Positions 1,565 to 24,581 of a DNA stretch of 28,891 nt are shown piece by piece. This DNA comes from a virus. Location: IMG/VR virus record IMGVR_UViG_3300034109_000861, positions 1 to 28,891 of that record; one strand, 5' to 3'. A program made the position numbers and the translations under genes. Below the pieces are notes generated by a model. The model was not told the DNA's origin. It saw nothing but the letters and a program-made list of their open reading frames with translations, and made no database searches. Every line of letters starts with the position of its first letter. Position 1 is the stretch's first letter.

Positions 1565-4500
1565 AGTTTTCTCCTTTTTCTAATTTTGTAACTCTTTTAG
1601 TTAAATCCTTTATTAAATCATATAATTCCTGTATAGCTTTTAGATTATAAACCGAAAGTTTATCATAGTTAACAGCTAGAACTCCTTTTTGTCCTTCTAT
1701 CTTAAACTCTTTTAATAAACCTGTTTTAAGTCCGTCGGTTATATCTTGAGCTATAATACCTACTTCTTTACCCTCTAAGTTAGATGGAATCCTATGAGAT
1801 GAAGATGTTTTATTTACTTCTAAAATAACACCTTTCATTTCATCTGTATTCCAATTATAATTAACAGGTTTTATCGTATATAGTTGCTCTAATACAGAAT
1901 CTATTTCCTCTATATCTTTTTTTAGTCTCCTATCTGAGAATGCTGGAAATGGACCTCCTGATGAGCTTCCTTTTTGCCCTTTCTCTCCTTTGAATCCGGT
2001 TGGACCAGTTGGACCGGGAGGGCCCGGAGGGCCGGGGTCTCCTGGCAATCCTTGTTCTCCTGCTCCCGTAGGACCTATTGAACCTTGCGGACCGGGTCCG
2101 CCGGAAGGGCCGGGAGGGCCGGGTCCACCGGGAGGGCCAGTAGGGCCAGGGGTACCTGAACCGGTTGGACCGGTAAATCCTTGAGGACCAGTAGGGCCAG
2201 GTCCTCCGGGAGTACCTGTGCCAGTAGGGCCGGTAAATCCTTGAGGTCCGGGTCCACCACTAGGTCCAGTAAATCCTTGAGGTCCGGGTCCACCACTAGG
2301 TCCAGTAAATCCTTGAGGTCCGGGTCCACCACTAGGTCCAGTAAATCCTTGAGGTCCGGGTTCTCCGGTAAATCCTTGAGGACCTATACCTGCTAATCCA
2401 GTAAATCCTTGAAATCCTTGGTTGCCTTGCGGGCCAGCCACAGAGCTTGGATTACCTGTAGGTCCTTGGTTGCCTTGCGAGCCCTGAAAACCTTGAGGAC
2501 CGGGAGCTCCCGGAGGGCTTATTATACTAGGTCCTTGTCTTCCTTGAAAACCCTGTGTACCTACTGTGCCTTGTAGTCCTGTTGGACCTTGGTTTCCTTG
2601 AGGTCCCGGTCCGCCGGGTTCTCCTGTAGGGCCTTGAAGTCCTACTCCTGACAAACCTGTAGGGCCTTGATTACCTTGTGTACCTGCTGTTCCTTGAAAA
2701 CCTGTTGGTCCTTGATTACCTTGTGGTCCTTGCCTTCCTTGAAAACCCTGTGTACCTACTGTGCCTTGTAGTCCTGTTGGACCTTGGTTTCCTTGAGGTC
2801 CTATATCCCCTTTCTGACCTTTGTCGCCTGTTAAACCAGGTTGGCCTTTAAATCCTATACTTCCTTTAGTCCCTTTATCGCCTTCACTTCCCTTATCTCC
2901 TTTATATCCTTTATAGCCAATTTCCCCTTTACTTCCTTTAAAATCTCCTTTAATTCCTTTATCTCCTTTAACTCCTTTATCTCCCTTACTCCCCGTAGGT
3001 CCAGGAGGACCTATTTTAGAACTTGGTATAGGAGATGGACTAGGAGCAAAAATTCCTATATTTTCAGGAGATGACATATTATGTACTAACACATCTTCTA
3101 CAAAAAAATTTTCATTTTTCTCTACGCTTAAATTATATACAGTACTAGATGTTGCGTATGAATAAATATTAGATATCTTTTCATAAGATAGTGTTTTGTA
3201 ATTAAAGAGTTCATCGTTTACAGATAAATCTTTAGCTTTTTTCCAATATTTATCATACCATCCTTTAACGTAAAATGGATGTTCTTCAGTACATTGTATA
3301 TTATTATTTATAACATATAAATAATTTGATTTTCCTACATGTTTATATATTATAGTATCTTCTTGTAGTGTTTTATTATCTATGTTATAAGACATGATTG
3401 ATTGACCTACTAAAGCTTCCTCTATTGTTATGTAAACATTATTCAATGTTAATATTTTAGTAGACGGAATAAAACAAGTTGGGCCTACTGATCCTGAAAA
3501 TCCTTTGTCTCCTTTGTCTCCTATTTCTCCTTTATCTCCTACACTGCCCTTCTGACCTATAGTTCCTTGTAGACCCGTTATGCCTTGATTACCCTGAGGT
3601 CCTTGATTACCCTGAAATCCGGTAAAACCTTGTAGTCCTTGATTACCCTGATTACCTTGCGGTCCTTGATTGCCTTGGAAACCTTGTGTACCTACTATTC
3701 CTTGAAAACCTTGTGTACCTACTGTACCTTGTATGCCCTGTATTCCCTGATTACCTTGCGGTCCTTGGTTGCCCTGCGGCCCTTCTACAGAACTTGGATT
3801 ACCGGTAAGACCTTGGTTTCCTTGTAGTCCTTGATTGCCTTGTGTGCCAATTGTTCCTTGAATACCTGTCGGACCTTGATTTCCTTGTGAGCCTTGATTA
3901 CCCTGCGCTCCGGTAGTACCCTGTAGTCCAGTAGGGCCTTGATTACCTTGCGGTCCTTGATTGCCTTGGAAACCTTGAGTTCCTACTGTTCCTTGAATAC
4001 CTGTCGGACCTTGATTTCCCTGTAAGCCTATAGTTCCTTGTAAACCTGTTGGTCCTTGATTGCCTTGTGTGCCAATTATTCCTTGAATACCTGTCGGACC
4101 TTGATTTCCCTGTGAGCCTATAGTTCCTTGTAAACCTATTGGTCCTTGATTGCCTTGAGAGCCTTTGAAGTTTCCTTTTTCTCCTTTCGGCCCTTTTTCA
4201 CCACCGCCAGCTATAGAAACAAATCCTTTAAAACATTCTCCAAAAGTTATTTCTATAGTATTTTCGTCTATGGCAGTATAATTTTCGGGGATAACGGAGT
4301 TCCCGTCATAGGAGTATATAGTAAATACAGGGTATTGTATTCCTGTACCGTGGTTAATTGTAATAACATTACAACTATTTAAAGAACCAGTAAATACGGT
4401 ATCTCCTAATTCACCTTTAGACCCACTTATTCCCTTAAGCCCTTCCTCCCCCTTCTGTCCTTTGCTTCCTTTAAAATTTCCTTTTTCTCCTTTGTTACCC

Positions 4501-6536
4501 TTTCCGGAGGAGCTAGCTATTAGAGCTTGAAATGCGGGGCTACTATTGAACGTGTTTATTAAAAGCTGTTCGTCAATAGTAACATCAACATTAACTTTAA
4601 CTCCATAGATGGTTGTAGAAAAATTAGCAGAAACTCCGTTAGCATTTAAATATTCTATTTCAAAAATATATTCAGTATCTATTTTTGCTATTGGTAAATT
4701 ATCCAATGGAATATCAATACAAAATTCATTAGGAGTTCCTCCGTCTGATGCACTTGGAAATATATCAATGTCAGAAACATTCCATTGCCCTGCATTTATA
4801 ATAAAATTAGGCTTTATATTATCTTCAGATGTGGCTTTAAATGTAAAAGTCTTCTTTATTTCAGACTTATTATTACCGCCTATTAAAGATCCTAAGAAAG
4901 TACCAAAGGAGTTCTTTTCTGATGTGCCAGATGGGGATGATGCATTTACCTTATTTATAGATAATGGAGATTTTTCTACATCCGGTCCTTGAATGTATAT
5001 GTCAAGTTGTGGAGTTTTTCCATTAGCGTCTTTTTCGGAAAATGCAGATATTTGTACAGTATATTCAGTGTTAGGAACTGATTTGGATAAGAAAGAATCT
5101 TTTACTGTTATATTTACTACTTCATTTTCTTGCTTATTGTGCTGTACGTCTAAGGCGTTTATTATATTTCCGCTGTTGGCAGATGTAGTTACTCCCCCAG
5201 CACCTAAGTTTTGATAAGATGAATTTTGCTTTCTAAACTTATTAATATCAAAATAGCTAGATATGTCAGAGCTGTCCTTTATATTTCCTACTTTCTTATT
5301 CTCTATACCCCCATTAGCAGAAAAATCATAAGAAGTAGGATCTGTTAATTTACTTGTTTTGGGTATTTTAAATTCTCCTAAACTAACTGGACTTCCTACC
5401 CCTCCGGCGGCTTTTGCCGAAACTTTTACTCTATCAACATCTCCGGAAACAGGTTTAGCATTTTTAACACATATTTTAGCGTATCCTGTTTTCTTTTGTC
5501 CATCGCTTGTATTTGGACTTTTAAAATAGTCTATACATATATTTGATGAATCGAATTTTGTAATATAAATTTCAGATGGTTCTCTTTTTTTATTTACATA
5601 GGACTCTCTATAGAAAAACTGTTTATCTACCTTTATTTGAGTACTACTAATTACCTCTACGATGGTTGCTGTGTAAGAAGGAACTGTTGGGGAATAACCA
5701 GAAGGTAAATCTCCGGGTAAATACTTGGAAATGTTAGGAGTTAAAGAGATAGTTCCTTTCTCCATTTCTTTTTTAAATGGAGCGCCGGTATTAGCTACTA
5801 TTGTGCTAAGGTTATTTGCGTCAGTTGTTATAGAAAAGTTACCGGAATTAGCTAAACTTCCCGATGTATTTACGGTAGGTGAGGATTCAATAGGTACTCC
5901 TTCAAATAATGTAGGTATATTAGAGGAATAGTTGGAAGAATATTGAGAAGGGGGTGCGGAGGATACATAAGATAAACTAACTGCATGACAACTTCCTGTA
6001 GCTCTGCTTCCGGAAAAGTTTTGAAAAGCTCTTGTTTCAGGAGTTAAATCTACTTTGGGAGGTATAGTATATTTTATATCTCCTACTGTTTTTTTCTTAA
6101 TATTACACAACAATTTACCTACCCATATAATATTAGGTGACGATAAATTTGTTACTTTTCTATTTCTTAGTACATCGAAATTAGCTGTACCTGCTATATA
6201 AATTTCACAATTTCCTATGGGTACCTTATCTCCTATGGTAACAGTTACAATAGCGGATCCATTAGAATTTGCAACATTTTTTATTTCGTGTGGAATTAAA
6301 TTGCCCTCCGAATCATAGACTTCAACAAAAACTTGAGTTCCTTTAACTAAGTTTTGCGTTGGGTTGATTCCTATTTCATTAGACCCTTTTAAAAATTCCG
6401 CAGGTAGAGATAAGCCAAAATAATTAGAACTTAAAGCATCACCATCAAAAAGAGTAAATTCATTTATATAGCTCTTTATCCCAGAGCTAGTTAATTTTTT
6501 ATTATATTCAGATGATGATGTTACTCCAGAAGCCAT
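1557..6536 (-). CDS. Collagen-like tail fibre with internal Hint domain and C-terminal peptidase S74 chaperone
   Basis: This 1659-residue protein is very probably a host-recognition fibre or long adhesin on the virion. Residues 1 to about 678 are a Ser/Asn/Thr-rich, beta-rich region that probably includes the virion-attachment part. Gly-X-Y repeats run about 679-712, a small globular segment with two Cys about 713-778, more Gly-X-Y about 779-1020, and a Hint (intein-like) domain 1021-1153. A Pro/Ser linker follows, then Gly-X-Y about 1178-1528, and a peptidase S74 intramolecular chaperone from S1534 (motif SDRRLKKDI) to the end, with a closing heptad-like coiled coil ([18 protein letters not shown]). 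In known S74 fibres the chaperone trimerises the stalk and then cuts itself off before the Ser. Stalk triplets are rich in Gln, Asn and Thr (GNQGPTG, GFQG). The start at 6536 follows the stop of the upstream gene by 3 bases and has no Shine-Dalgarno. Confidence 0.9.
1560..1937 (-). other. Peptidase S74 intramolecular chaperone domain
   Basis: This encodes residues 1534-1659, the last 126 residues of the fibre. Features seen are the self-cleavage motif SDRRLKKDI with the predicted nucleophile S1534, a conserved-looking VGIIAQDI segment, a [17 protein letters not shown] segment, and a terminal coiled coil. These match the family of phage fibre and spike chaperones that fold a trimeric stalk and then release themselves between the residue before Ser and the Ser (here F1533/S1534). 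Confidence 0.92.
2230..2360 (-). repeat. 36-bp tandem repeat in the collagen-like stalk
   Basis: Three head-to-tail 36-bp units (2230-2265, 2266-2301, 2302-2337) differ at one base in the first copy, and a partial fourth copy begins at 2338. Each unit encodes twelve residues, four Gly-X-Y triplets ([12 protein letters not shown] in one register). Because the unit is a multiple of nine bases, gain or loss of copies would change stalk length without breaking the reading frame or the triplet register. Confidence 0.93.
2530..2801 (-). repeat. 77-bp direct duplication, 195 bp apart
   Basis: The segments 2530-2606 and 2725-2801 are the same 77 bases with one mismatch that I can see. The 195-bp offset is 65 codons, so the reading frame is kept. 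Both copies encode Gly-X-Y residues ([19 protein letters not shown]). This looks like a recent duplication or recombination within the stalk. Confidence 0.88.
3078..3476 (-). other. Hint / bacterial-intein-like domain within the fibre gene
   Basis: This segment encodes residues 1021-1153 of the collagen-like fibre (133 residues). It starts with [10 protein letters not shown] (splicing block A, nucleophilic Cys1). It contains CTEEHPFYV (block B, with the T-x-x-H signature at T1083 and H1086), and ends in [19 protein letters not shown] (blocks F/G, terminal His-Asn). The size fits a mini-intein without a homing endonuclease. The residue after Asn is Met, followed by Ser-Ser, so the +1 Cys/Ser/Thr nucleophile needed for classical splicing is absent. 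By the known chemistry of bacterial-intein-like domains it should cleave at one or both ends and is not expected to splice efficiently. Gly-X-Y repeats end at GPT immediately before Cys1 and restart about 25 residues after the terminal Asn. Confidence 0.9.
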
Positions 6537-10582: not shown

Positions 10583-11008
10583 TTATTTTTTTTCTTCAAA
10601 CCATTGCTTAGGTATCGAATAAGCCGCCCATTTTATATTGTGTTTATTGCACCACTCGGCGTAAGTGGTTTTAGCTCCTTTTGAAATTCTTACATGAGGA
10701 TCCTGGAATACAATCCTAATATCTAAATGAGGGTTACATGAAATAATGTCCATCATCTTTTTTCGTTCTTCTAAAGTCCATCTTCCTTTAGCTTCTATGA
10801 TAATATTATTAGGTAACTCAAAATCTGCTAAATAAGTTCTAGGAGTTTCCGGTTTTATATACTTAATAACTTTTTTCTCATACAAATCTTTAGGGTCTAC
10901 TCCCAAAGATCCCGATATTTGTAAAGCAATTGACTTCTCGAAATTGGATCTATAACCTTCTTTCTGTGCTAGTCTAGTCTTAAATGAATTGTTAAAAAAT
11001 CCTGCCAT
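10583..11008 (-). CDS. T7 endonuclease I-like Holliday-junction resolvase
   Basis: This 141-residue nuclease should cut branched DNA, resolving replication and recombination junctions before packaging. It resembles phage T7 gp3 throughout. The four catalytic residues line up with those of T7 (E20, D55, E65, K67): E24 in SNFEKS, D62 in YLADFELPN, and E72 and K74 in IIIEAKGRW. The segment LDIRIVFQDP and the end KHNIKWA also match the family pattern. I chose ATG at 11008 over a TTG four codons earlier (11020), because the TTG start would overlap the previous gene and because MAG at the start recalls T7 gp3. The upstream gene ends one base before this ATG. T4 uses the unrelated endonuclease VII for this job. 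Confidence 0.93.
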   Translation of the reverse strand: MAGFFNNSFKTRLAQKEGYRSNFEKSIALQISGSLGVDPKDLYEKKVIKYIKPETPRTYLADFELPNNIIIEAKGRWTLEERKKMMDIISCNPHLDIRIVFQDPHVRISKGAKTTYAEWCNKHNIKWAAYSIPKQWFEEKK

Positions 11009-11009
11009 G

Positions 11010-12665
11010 TTAATAATCAAATTTTACAATAACATTTAAATCTACATCATCTCTTTTCTTTATAGCTTGTCCCATTTTACCTACTGCAATTAGTTCGTTA
11101 GATTTGTTATACAAGCCGATGGTAGTTATATAAGGAGATAAAGAACCTGTGAAATCATCTAAATACTCTGCACTCTTAACAGTTTTAGTAGAGGAAGGGT
11201 TCAATGTGAGATTAAAATCACCCCTCTTAATTCTACATAACATCTCAAACTCATACAAAGTTAAGCTATTTTTATAATATAACAACCAATTATTAGATAA
11301 AATTTCATGATATTTTTTATCTACGCTTGTAATTACTAAGTTACCTGTTCTATAAAATACATTTCCTACTCTACTTGTCTGGTAACATGAGATAGAAGAT
11401 GTATTATAAAGACTTGTTACATTTTGAGATGTTGCCGCTTTATTATAAAATCTTAATTCATCAATAAGTCCTGTATATCCATTTCTTCCATCAAAAGAAG
11501 ATGCTCCTATCATGATATCACTTACATTGACAGTTTCATCTTTGACATCCGCTCTCGATGAATTTAATGCTCCATCAACATATAATCTAACATTTGAACC
11601 TGTCTTAACTAAACATACATGATGAAAATTATTATCTAAAATGGAATTAGAAGATGTTAATTGTAATGTTGAAAACCCATCTGACCTACTAAAAGATAGT
11701 TTTCCTGGTTGTGGATGGGTGTGATTATGTACCGAAAACTCATAAGGGTAGTAATCCACTGGGTAGTATTTAAAGGAAGAAGATGAAAAAACATCGGTTA
11801 CTACTAGATTCCCTTTATTTACTCTTTTTAATCTTCCGAATTCTTCTCTGTATAATATGGATTTTTTGTCAAGTATTGTATTTTTATTACTAGTCAATAC
11901 GCTTTGAGATACCGGTGCCTTTAACCAAAAACTTATGGTGAAATTGTCTGCTGATTCAAAACTGACGGTATCAAAGTTTTTAGTGTGAATATAACCATCC
12001 CCATAAAATTCCGCAGCTAATCCTGTTCTAGTTCCGTTAATAGGAATACCACTTGAATAGGCTACTTGGTATGACTTTGATTTTTCTTGTGGTTCAATTA
12101 CTTCGCTTTCGTATCTTATAAACAAAGTCTTTTTTCCTCCTCTGCCGTATCTATAAGCTTTATGCGCATCCTGGAATCCCCAATATCCACATAAATTATC
12201 TGTATTTAGGAAAGAACTTGTATTTATATTCTTGTCATATAAGTTATTGTGTCCATCGTCTACTAAAAGTACATTGTTGTTTAGTCCTTTTAAATATAAT
12301 GTGGTTTCTTTAATCTTGTCTCCGTAATTTAAAGAAGGAATAGAAAGTAAACTAGCTGTTAAAAATAAATTCTTAGTAGTTCTATTTCTGTCCCATCCCT
12401 CTAAAGAATTAGCCCATGCAAAACCTCTCTTATAATACAAGTGGTTTAGTGAATTATAAACAATATACTTATAAGACCCATCTGTATTTTTAGGATAAGT
12501 GATATCTTTTGATGAACTGATATGAATAGGGCCTTTATAGTAAAGACCTTGCTGTACTTGATAACCTTGTTTTGAATAACTTCCGGTGAGGATATAATAC
12601 TCCTTGTTTACTTCAAACGGGGTAATATTAAAATCCTCACCTCTTATTGGCGCGAATGTACTCAT
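11010..12665 (-). CDS. LamG-domain virion protein, paralogue of the next two upstream genes
   Basis: This 551-residue protein is likely a tail or baseplate decoration that binds carbohydrate. The N-terminal 220 residues are of unknown fold. A LamG/concanavalin-like jelly roll occupies about 225-420; diagnostic stretches are NFTISFWLKAP, NFHHVCLVKTGSNVRLYVDG and TGLIDELRFYNKA. The last ~45 residues (YITTIGLYNKSNELIAVGK and onward) match the ends of the two upstream proteins and probably form a shared attachment or trimerisation module. It starts one base after the upstream stop. A depolymerase role is possible, but no catalytic motif was recognised. Confidence 0.82.
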   Translation of the reverse strand: MSTFAPIRGEDFNITPFEVNKEYYILTGSYSKQGYQVQQGLYYKGPIHISSSKDITYPKNTDGSYKYIVYNSLNHLYYKRGFAWANSLEGWDRNRTTKNLFLTASLLSIPSLNYGDKIKETTLYLKGLNNNVLLVDDGHNNLYDKNINTSSFLNTDNLCGYWGFQDAHKAYRYGRGGKKTLFIRYESEVIEPQEKSKSYQVAYSSGIPINGTRTGLAAEFYGDGYIHTKNFDTVSFESADNFTISFWLKAPVSQSVLTSNKNTILDKKSILYREEFGRLKRVNKGNLVVTDVFSSSSFKYYPVDYYPYEFSVHNHTHPQPGKLSFSRSDGFSTLQLTSSNSILDNNFHHVCLVKTGSNVRLYVDGALNSSRADVKDETVNVSDIMIGASSFDGRNGYTGLIDELRFYNKAATSQNVTSLYNTSSISCYQTSRVGNVFYRTGNLVITSVDKKYHEILSNNWLLYYKNSLTLYEFEMLCRIKRGDFNLTLNPSSTKTVKSAEYLDDFTGSLSPYITTIGLYNKSNELIAVGKMGQAIKKRDDVDLNVIVKFDY

Positions 12666-22328: not shown

Positions 22329-24581
22329 TTAATTATTCTTTCGGGAGAATGGATCGTAAGGAGGATTACCTCTACTACCTCCTGTACCACTACTGCCACC
22401 TGTACTACGGCCATTCGTTCGCATGAATGGAATGGGTCCACCACCGCCCGTGCTACCACCACCTGTGCCACCACCACCTGTATTATCACCGCCTGTATTA
22501 TTACCAATATTTTGATAACTTAGAAAGTCTATGGTATTTCCCGGAATGCCTCGTGTTAAATCTATGGAACTAGTATCTTGTCCTCCACTACCTCCCCCTC
22601 CGCCAGGAGTTTCTGTTGTAGGGCAGTTAAAATTATTTAAATCTATGAAAACATTAACTAAAGGAGGAGCTTGATTTCTATCTATAAGAGTAGAATTACC
22701 TCTATATTGGTAACTCTTATTTCCGCTATTTAAAAATAAAGTGCAGATTTGATTAATACTACCTATACTTAGAGAAGTGTATATTTTATCATTTTCGTCA
22801 GTACAAGATACAAGTTCATATATTACTATTTTAGTAGTATCTCCGCCGCCGCCTGAAGGGCCTCCACCTCCAATGCCCGGACAATTTGTAACTCCTTTTA
22901 TTTCTAGTAAATCAGTAAGTATTGCTATAGCTAGTGTGGTGGGATAGAAATTTGGTTCTAATTCATCCCAATAATAAGAAAGACGTTTTGTAACGCTATA
23001 ATAAATTTGATTAGCTTTAGGTTGTGTGGCGATATACCCAGGTATATCATTTGAATTACATGGAATCATTCTCCAGTATTTATTACCTGCTCCTGTACTA
23101 GTACCTCCTGTTCCTCCACCTGTATCTGTTCCTCCTCCGGTACAAGGACCTGTTCCTCCACCTGTATCTGTTCCTCCTCCGGTACCAGGACCTGTTCCTC
23201 CACCTGTATCTGTTCCTCCACCTGTATTTCCTCCTCCGGTACCAGGACCTGTTCCTCCACCTGTATTATCTTTAGGGCATTCAGGACAAAGAGAATTAGT
23301 TCCAGATGCTCCTGTAGGTCCAGCAGGTCCTTGCGGTCCTATGGGACCAAGTCCGCCAAGTTGACCATTTTGTCCCGGCTGACCATTCTGTCCGGGTAAT
23401 CCGTTAGTTCCATTCTGTCCATTAACTCCGGGTTGTCCATTAGCTCCAGCAGGTCCATTAGCTCCATCTTTACCATCCTTGCCATCTTTACCATCTTTAC
23501 CGGCGGGTCCAGCAGGTCCTTGAGGTCCAGGTAAAGGTATTGAGCCTCCTCCTACTACATTCAATCCATCTTTACCGTCTTTACCAGGTCTTCCTTCAGA
23601 GCCACTAACGATAATAACAAAAGGTTCTGCCGGGATGTTATTAATAATTGTCGAAGGTATGTTATTAATAATTGGAACCATAGGGTCAATAATGTTTCTT
23701 ACTTTTTTCCTAACAGCAGGTGTCCAAGATGAAGATAAGTCAAGACAATTCCCATTATTATTTGTGTTTATAAAATAGTAAGTGTATCCTTCCAAGGGTC
23801 TTGCTCCAACTTCAGCAATTTTAACAAATGTACCTAATGGGTAAGTAGCTAATTCGGAGAAATCTACTCGTTCAATAGATACTACGTCGTTATATGTTTT
23901 ATTTCTTTCAAACATCATAACTTCTAATGTCTCATTGTTAGGAATAAGACATACCGAGATATCTGTTAATGCTTGATTATTACCTCCAATAAAATAATTA
24001 AAATTTGCATCAATTATTTTAGAAAGTATAAAATCAGAAACGATAACTTTTTCAGGTCTTATAAAATAATACCCAGGATCTACAGATAAGGTAGTCCCTT
24101 GTAATTTGTAACTTATTGGAACATATTTTATTCCTTTAAGATTTACTTTTAATTTTGGTTTATTGGCTTTTTTTATATCTTCAGTGGAATATCTATTTTT
24201 ATTTTGTCCCTCTATTTCAGGCAATCTTTCATTTATTGTTCCGAAGATGACTTTTTCTACATTCCCTTCGTATCTTCTAACAATTTTATAATTTACATAA
24301 TCATCAGTTTCACTAGATGTGTTAATTTCATTTTTTGGGACGGGAAGAGATATTTCTAATTTATTATTTACATCTAATGCATCTCCAATTTTTATTAATT
24401 CTTTAGACTCTTCCGTAGTAAATCTTCCGGACATGTATTTTCCATACTCGTCTACATGATATTGACCTTTATATATGTCTCCATTTAAATAAGTAAAATC
24501 TCCAGTAGATAAGTTAGGACCTGATCTTTTATTGTTTGGATCTGATAATCTATGTATATTTATGATATTATTCTCTTCCAC
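22329..24581 (-). CDS. Collagen-like, Gly/Thr-rich virion protein
   Basis: This 750-residue protein is likely a fibre or adhesin. The N-terminus has DIYKGQYHVDEYGKYMSGRF, a G-x-Y-H-x-x-x-x-G-x-x-M-x-G pattern that I recall from phage structural proteins. Residues to about 325 are beta-rich. Gly-X-Y repeats with many GKD and GQN triplets run about 327-428, followed by CPECP (C432, C435). A low-complexity Gly/Thr region about 437-495 follows, then two small Cys-containing segments separated by Gly-rich spacers, and a Gly/Ser-rich tail. The chosen start is GTG at 24581, overlapping the upstream TAG by one base; an in-frame TAA lies two codons upstream and the next ATG is far downstream. Parts of the low-complexity sequence are tandemly repeated in the DNA. 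Confidence 0.82.
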   Translation of the reverse strand: MEENNIINIHRLSDPNNKRSGPNLSTGDFTYLNGDIYKGQYHVDEYGKYMSGRFTTEESKELIKIGDALDVNNKLEISLPVPKNEINTSSETDDYVNYKIVRRYEGNVEKVIFGTINERLPEIEGQNKNRYSTEDIKKANKPKLKVNLKGIKYVPISYKLQGTTLSVDPGYYFIRPEKVIVSDFILSKIIDANFNYFIGGNNQALTDISVCLIPNNETLEVMMFERNKTYNDVVSIERVDFSELATYPLGTFVKIAEVGARPLEGYTYYFINTNNNGNCLDLSSSWTPAVRKKVRNIIDPMVPIINNIPSTIINNIPAEPFVIIVSGSEGRPGKDGKDGLNVVGGGSIPLPGPQGPAGPAGKDGKDGKDGKDGANGPAGANGQPGVNGQNGTNGLPGQNGQPGQNGQLGGLGPIGPQGPAGPTGASGTNSLCPECPKDNTGGGTGPGTGGGNTGGGTDTGGGTGPGTGGGTDTGGGTGPCTGGGTDTGGGTGGTSTGAGNKYWRMIPCNSNDIPGYIATQPKANQIYYSVTKRLSYYWDELEPNFYPTTLAIAILTDLLEIKGVTNCPGIGGGGPSGGGGDTTKIVIYELVSCTDENDKIYTSLSIGSINQICTLFLNSGNKSYQYRGNSTLIDRNQAPPLVNVFIDLNNFNCPTTETPGGGGGSGGQDTSSIDLTRGIPGNTIDFLSYQNIGNNTGGDNTGGGGTGGGSTGGGGPIPFMRTNGRSTGGSSGTGGSRGNPPYDPFSRKNN
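23107..23266 (-). repeat. 42-bp tandem repeat encoding Gly/Thr-rich spacer
   Basis: Units start at 23107, 23149 and 23191; the third carries a 15-bp insertion, giving 57 bp, and a partial fourth starts at 23248. Each encodes a Gly-Gly-Gly-Thr-rich 14-residue stretch. All length steps are multiples of three, so the frame is kept. Confidence 0.88.

Follow-up and report, generated by a model that had tools for sequence, protein, structure and literature searches.

Hint domains are known to process themselves in hedgehog proteins, inteins and bacterial-intein-like domains (BILs). For the type A BILs, the reported route comprises a thioester at Cys1 and cyclisation of Asn at the C-terminal junction, leading mainly to cleavage and to some ligation (PMC4031507, PMC7664689). 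These domains are described as splicing without a +1 nucleophile, the freed C-terminal amine attacking the thioester, with cleavage products dominating (PMC4031507), and cleavage is also reported as predominant for BILs in a second source (PMC7664689). The hedgehog domain is described as combining an N-S acyl shift with an outside nucleophile, cholesterol (PMC7664689). In the phage literature sampled, inteins are placed in enzymes, terminases and one minor head protein and are not presented as a step of fibre maturation; among open-access PMC titles and abstracts, none was found to deal with a Hint in a phage fibre, by which absence from print is not implied.

The window, i.e. the whole stretch of DNA analysed here (28,891 bases), carries tail and baseplate genes, an Mre11/Rad50-like gene composed of metallophosphatase and AAA domains, and a partial terminase, according to its open reading frames, Pfam and PHROG. 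The gene considered below encodes a collagen-like fibre into which a Hint domain is set.

Architecture of the fibre and identity of its Hint domain

The features of the fibre are collected in Table 1. The Pfam family Collagen (PF01391, E 9e-72) flanks the Hint on both sides, and residues 1-680 presumably form the part attached to the tail. Charged triplets also lie on both sides of the Hint, and the distal collagen has lysines at residues 1184, 1187, 1190, 1193, 1196 and 1200, just past K1174. S74 domains are reported to be self-detaching chaperones of tail fibres and spikes (PMC7824862), so the mature fibre chain should be shorter at its far end regardless of the Hint, and the S74 domain is predicted to provide a second self-cleavage besides that of the Hint.

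Table 1. Features of the collagen-like fibre, with positions in the window
Feature	Position	Strand	Basis or remark
Collagen-like fibre ORF, 1659 aa	1557..6536	minus	Pfam Collagen (11 stretches) and Peptidase_S74; PHROG tail fibre families
N-terminal non-collagen domain, residues 1-680	4497..6536	minus	82-100% identity across 14 IMG/VR loci
Small non-collagen TVFTGSL domain within collagen, about residues 713-778	4203..4400	minus	Sequence; dN/dS 0.02, window vs L007
Gly-X-Y run of 34 triplets, residues 919-1020	3477..3782	minus	Last residue is T1020
Hint domain, residues 1021-1153	3078..3476	minus	Pfam, NCBIfam, predicted fold
Cys1 (C1021), block A nucleophile	3474..3476	minus	Cys in 13/13 rows of the 13-row alignment
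Block B, T1083-E-E-H1086	3279..3290	minus	His in 13/13 and Thr in 10/13 rows of the 13-row alignment
Block G, H1152-N1153	3078..3083	minus	Both in 13/13 rows; N1153 codon 3078-3080
+1 residue, Met1154	3075..3077	minus	Met in 8/8 close fibre loci; Thr in 10 non-fibre alignment rows
Pro/Ser-rich linker, residues 1154-1175, including K1174	3012..3077	minus	22 residues, between Hint and distal collagen
Distal collagen-like region, residues 1176-1525, with short breaks	1962..3011	minus	Sequence
Peptidase_S74 chaperone, residues 1534-1599	1740..1937	minus	PF13884, E 6.6e-10, 39.6 bits, cut-off 22; motif SDRRLKK at 1534

Elsewhere on the minus strand of the window, a second protein with a collagen-like stretch, Gly/Thr-rich repeats and a GTG start is encoded at 22329-24581; it gave no Pfam match up to E 1, hence no Hint match. 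The protein encoded at 11010-12665 has a lectin domain of the concanavalin A-like kind (Laminin_G_3, 2.6e-19) and is perhaps a receptor binder, and a phage endonuclease I (PF05367, 3.6e-34) at 10583-11020 adjoins a primase-like gene.

For the isolated Hint, both PF14890 Intein_splicing (4.2e-11, 43.3 bits, cut-off 35.8) and PF07591 PT-HINT (1.7e-6, 28.8 bits, cut-off 27.7) were matched, and the NCBIfam models TIGR01445 (intein_Nterm) and TIGR01443 (intein_Cterm) also scored above their cut-offs. With the whole 1659-residue protein as query, PF14890 (33.3 vs 35.8), PF07591 (23.4 vs 27.7) and TIGR01445 (20.2 vs 24.5) fell under their cut-offs and TIGR01443 (18.8 vs 15.6) stayed over, the lower scores being read by us as an effect of the long repetitive protein. 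The best PHROG matches of the isolated domain were a helicase (3.5e-5) and a virion structural protein (2e-4), with others weaker. Within the 133 residues, neither an endonuclease family (Pfam) nor a sterol-binding region was matched.

The conservation given in Table 1 refers to a 13-row alignment of three fibres, three terminases and seven collagen-bearing tail proteins, from which the other Hints retrieved (L017-L020) were left out. At the block-F position of this alignment, Asp is found in 10 of the 13 rows and Asn in the three fibres, Asn being present also in L017-L019. Residues 1021-1153 are a real, well-formed Hint domain, far beyond chance, and the place in which it is found is unusual. 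The first-pass annotation had described this domain, its boundaries and blocks, and collagen on both sides of it, in agreement with Pfam, NCBIfam and the sequence, and its coordinates and residue numbers proved exact (C1021 at 3474-3476, N1153 at 3078-3080, M1154 at 3075-3077).

Structure prediction had been set beforehand as a test that could overturn the assignment, and the Hint fold was recovered in both of two AlphaFold2 runs. An all-beta fold was predicted in each; the first run yielded a single good model out of five (mean pLDDT 76.9, the rest 60-37), and in the second, with 13 sequences, all five models lay at 66-79 (best 78.6). The predicted fold is the horseshoe-shaped, all-beta fold of the Hint superfamily. 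In each of two fold-comparison runs 84 of 996 chains reached a Z of at least 8, and the best 50 of these 84 matches were, by title, BILs, inteins, intein endonucleases or hedgehog. The top structural match was in both cases BIL2 (6y75, Z 19.9 and 20.4, with 28% identity in the second), about 2 Z above the inteins; the Clostridium thermocellum BIL (2lwy, Z 18.9 and 19.2, in the second run 1.6 A over 131 residues) and the Ssp DnaB intein (Z 18.6 and 18.4) were tied. The earlier claim of a likeness to BILs is borne out by their place at the top of both comparisons, at Z about 20, and the choice of a BIL rather than an intein rests as much on the +1 residue and the setting as on the fold.

Conservation and apparently optional presence among related fibres

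In an IMG/VR scan with the Hint, 15 loci were obtained, namely eight fibres (L002-L009) and seven terminases (L010-L016). The eight fibres represent three protein variants, six of them being identical in protein (0 or 3 base differences) and L007 and L009 being 89% and 78% identical to the window, respectively. All eight keep Cys1, TEEH, HN and Met at +1, and the earlier description of the +1 residue as a non-nucleophilic Met holds for the window and for every one of these loci. The catalytic conservation within this close family is weak evidence, because the variants are few and 104 of 133 Hint positions are identical overall between the window and L009.

The dN/dS of the Hint was 0.07 (L007) and 0.13 (L009), compared with 0.05 for the N-terminal domain, 0.07-0.11 for S74 and 0.02 for the TVFTGSL domain, indicating that the Hint is maintained under purifying selection, by which catalysis and structure cannot be separated. 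Low dN/dS is equally expected of a structural domain, and conservation in the close family does not tell the two roles apart. The Hint fold could have been co-opted as an inert globular spacer or binding module that no longer cuts. With S74 removed and no globular head seen beyond the Hint, the latter would be the most distal globular domain of the fibre, and the Hint of phage LR756508, in which the block-B His is changed to Gln, shows that catalytic residues can be lost. The window Hint, however, is 25-34% identical to the six non-fibre Hints with which it was compared and still keeps its whole core catalytic set (Cys1, block-B Thr/His, His-Asn), and it begins and ends exactly with Cys1 and Asn, collagen reaching to residue -1; we consider an inert domain rather unlikely, if the most serious of the alternatives.

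The fibre N-terminal domain was found in 14 loci, of which 7 are on Hint-holding contigs and 6 end in collagen at the contig end without a Hint; the remaining one, L040, runs to S74 without a Hint, and frame breaks make its assembly suspect. The S74 domain was found in 28 loci. By tblastn a Hint was detected in 7 of them, but not in L040 or in the other 20, which are truncated upstream; most of these 20 are uninformative, since the Hint is expected 299-385 residues before S74. Two loci, L052 and L053, extend from the TVFTGSL domain through S74 without a Hint (in L053 over 279 residues with no Cys), and in 6/6 Hint-bearing fibres measured the Hint lies within this interval; for both loci, collapse of repeats in assembly or a Hint elsewhere in the cut-off fibres is a caveat. 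Seven phage records were searched with PF14890. The fibre Hint was the sole match in four Hint-bearing contigs (one of 142 kb, the others shorter), the contig of L010 was matched at two places, and no match was obtained in the 98.6-kb (L064) and 16-kb (L053) contigs, whose fibres end at the contig end; the family was also matched in 6 of 14 control genomes. The Hint-less relatives have different collagen and offer no precise empty site. Taken as it stands, the Hint cassette seems to be optional in related fibres.

The fibre of L009 (387-785 and 1926-2312) is a mosaic, with its S74 part at dS 0.19 to the window and its Hint at dS 1.09, and fibre modules seem to recombine.

A decaying selfish mini-intein, inserted into the fibre and perhaps descended from an intein of a phage terminase, would also account for a Hint at this place. 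In the IMG/VR scan no non-fibre match is nearer than the terminase Hints (L010-L016), which share VEKNENFF...L.HN with the fibre Hints, but the window domain has only 133 residues without an endonuclease match, is located in variable collagen rather than in an enzyme, with no conserved motif or precise empty site, and evolves under purifying selection. Its +1 residue is Met and not Cys, Ser or Thr, identically in three divergent variants. Furthermore, one metagenome study reports that 0 of 36 tail fibre/collar/protein matches in variable islands were inteins (PMC7468147), and in a tree with weak forks and long branches the fibre Hints group with neither the terminase inteins nor others. A selfish origin appears very improbable to us.

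The tree in question comprised 20 Hint rows and no reference BIL; 10 of its 17 inner branches were open, several branches were long, and no well-supported set contained the fibre Hints. Descent of the fibre Hint from a terminase intein was considered as a candidate on this tree and was set aside, the fibre Hints being placed with no group.

Junctions, linker and predicted processing

The Gly-X-Y run stops at T1020, the residue directly before Cys1, and collagen restarts at residue 1176. In the window and two divergent variants the N-flank ends in GDKGFSGS[VI]GPT, and the C-flank of the three variants extends from Met via FAPSP to SSKIGPPGP. In IMG/VR, a DNA pattern for FFVxx[VIM][LF]VHNM and a pattern for the linker were each found in the same eight Hint-fibre contigs only. 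A gene fusion in which Met1154 was an old gene start was rejected, as in IMG/VR the linker pattern was confined to those contigs and no stand-alone ancestor was found. For an internal translation start at ATG1154, no clear ribosome site was seen when the sequence was viewed by eye.

The residues that mark a type A BIL are present in the window, namely Cys1, TxxH, His-Asn and a +1 residue other than Cys, Ser or Thr. From the type A BIL chemistry, cuts at T1020/C1021 and N1153/M1154 would be expected, with some re-joining at the linker. We favour, with moderate confidence and on the strength of sequence and predicted fold, the reading of the Hint as an A-type BIL-like module acting in cis on the fibre chain and not as an ordinary selfish intein; judged from the sequence, it probably performs at least one self-cleavage. 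The cis-acting module is supported by the curated family cut-offs passed by the domain alone, by the BILs ranking first in both fold runs, by the exact junction of collagen and Cys1, by the low dN/dS, by the reported cleavage and splicing of type A BILs, and by Cys1, block-B His and His-Asn kept in 13/13 rows despite only 32 of 126 positions being shared between the window and the Hint of Erwinia phage Y3. Against it, a fibre that sheds its distal collagen would lose a large part of itself, which makes the advantage doubtful, and some related fibres appear to be without a Hint, the fibres have Asn in block F and LR756508 has Gln in block B.

As a BIL-like module, the Hint would act first by an N-to-S acyl shift at T1020-C1021 that yields a thioester. 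Cyclisation of N1153 would then release the distal chain, which would begin with M1154. Most of the thioester would be hydrolysed, so that the proximal stalk, ending in GPT, and the distal collagen-S74 chain would be separate, and by a minor path a nearby amine (M1154 or a lysine) would attack the thioester and re-join the two parts. The mature fibre would then no longer contain the Hint and would have been cut, or joined again, at a flexible Pro/Ser hinge, and S74 would remove itself from the far end. The first-pass annotation had held that ordinary splicing should not complete; this applies to the branched-ester route and is too strict for type A BILs, which are reported to be able to ligate (PMC4031507). 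Since S74 self-cleavage is predicted, an uncleaved chain of 1659 residues is not expected in virions, and the full-length-protein test proposed earlier against Hint processing is confounded. The S74 domain, the Hint-less related fibres and the Hints in other phage structural proteins were all absent from that annotation.

As a conjugation module, the Hint might pass the T1020 thioester to a lysine (for example K1174, or one on a neighbouring chain or another protein), the resulting isopeptide bond locking chains together or attaching the stalk to a partner. BIL2, the top structural match, is reported to form Lys isopeptide bonds (PMC8616854), a precedent not named in the first-pass annotation for the cross-link that it had suggested. 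K1174, the closest conserved candidate downstream, is kept in the three variants, and the collagen past it has further lysines. K1174 is not singled out, however, as nearly the whole linker is conserved; such a conjugation module is improbable in our estimate.

If the Hint is active, two domains of the fibre would cut themselves independently of each other, the Hint and S74, and post-translational steps would decide how long, flexible or covalently linked the fibre is. The domain would also be a natural Hint working beside a collagen triple helix, which might be useful for protein ligation.

Hints of other phages and comparison with known systems

Using tblastn with the window Hint, 9 of 50,697 phage records were matched, and with the Y3 Hint as query 55 records were matched, 48 of them Erwinia phages. 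The collagen beside Y3-type Hints was checked in eight IMG/VR copies (L079-L086), and in all eight the tail protein has one 29-triplet Gly-X-Y run and a C-terminal Hint with Cys1 and block-B Thr/His. The C-terminus of these proteins is likewise uniform (8/8), with HN followed by TD[IM]xAxAEK, at most one further residue, and the stop.

The 484-kb phage LR756508 is distantly related to the window phage, with a baseplate protein 40.9% identical, and keeps the order of primase, Mre11/Rad50-like gene and, after further genes, a homologue of the window ORF 932-1564 (E 4e-15). Between these kept genes there are a Hint-ending protein and a region weakly resembling the fibre N-terminal domain (25% over 130 residues, E 5e-4, with just four stretches searched). 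The former is a 433-residue open frame (L087 9496-10794) that ends in the Hint, its HN being followed by Lys-His and the stop, and it gave no collagen match. Gln replaces the block-B His, and on this sequence the Hint of LR756508 may be inactive. Terminase, endonuclease I and S74 queries gave no match on the LR756508 locus stretches.

Microcystis phage Mel-JY01 has 49.7% identity to the window phage in the same comparison. The gene following its AAA-domain gene is annotated as hypothetical and is, in our reading, a DNA methyltransferase; no Hint was found in the Mel-JY01 stretches fetched. An annotated prolyl 4-hydroxylase is present in this phage (L067 3093-3692), and a 2OG-Fe(II) oxygenase (PF13640) was found at L077 and L078, on the contig of L032, which is from a related phage, and in none of the other 5 of the 6 records searched. 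Hydroxylation of collagen fibres is a possible role for these genes.

In a Ruminococcus phage (Ca. Heliusvirales), three Hint matches lie within 4.2 kb (L018 250-657, 1594-2001 and 4001-4408). Wider searches were negative: no stretch of a nine-row Hint alignment was conserved enough for searching, a pattern scan of genome contigs gave 72 matches and no relative of the fibre Hint, the LR756508 Hint matched 5 stretches in IMG/VR and no relative, and in the phages collection nothing matched the fibre N-terminal domain.

Placed together, the collagen-associated Hints could represent a recurrent phage device in which a Hint arms the end of a collagen stalk with a reactive thioester, to be passed to a lysine without ATP, an idea that we hold to be a long shot. 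Equally doubtful are the acceptors that it would call for, namely a lysine of the same chain (K1174), of a neighbouring one or of another virion protein, or else an amine on the host surface. If it were true, the phage would build covalently locked or covalently anchoring fibres, and the C-terminal Hints of the Y3 type, and perhaps that of LR756508, would be versions with only a short tail to discard.

Among the known systems, the Hedgehog C-terminal autoprocessing domain (1at0) shares the Hint fold at Z 17.0, lower than the BILs, and differs in that no sterol-binding region was matched in the window Hint. The large-subunit terminase inteins (L010-L016) have the C-terminal motif in common with the window and are its nearest non-fibre Hints in the IMG/VR scan, whereas their +1 residue is Thr, they are inserted at SRQ/TGLS, which we take to be the terminase ATPase motif, and LAGLIDADG was found in 2 of the 3 rows scanned.

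Erwinia phage Y3 gp110 and its kin resemble the window fibre in combining collagen with a Hint that has Cys1, block-B Thr/His and HN, and the GenBank note on the Y3 tail protein (KY984068) already reads 'contains intein domain'. The Y3 type differs by its C-terminal Hint, a near-constant tail of 9-10 residues, Thr at +1 and about 165 residues between collagen and Hint. The Tetrahymena thermophila BIL2 (BUBL1 locus; 6y75, 6tmm) is the best match both in structure and by PDB sequence (1.4e-5), yet it belongs to a ciliate polyubiquitin locus, where it lies between ubiquitin-like domains and where the Lys isopeptides are reported (PMC8616854). Compared with the C. thermocellum type A BIL (2lwy), the window Hint has a different setting, a collagen-like phage fibre that also bears an S74 chaperone, and it shares with that BIL the predicted fold, Cys1, TxxH, the terminal His-Asn and a non-nucleophilic +1 residue.
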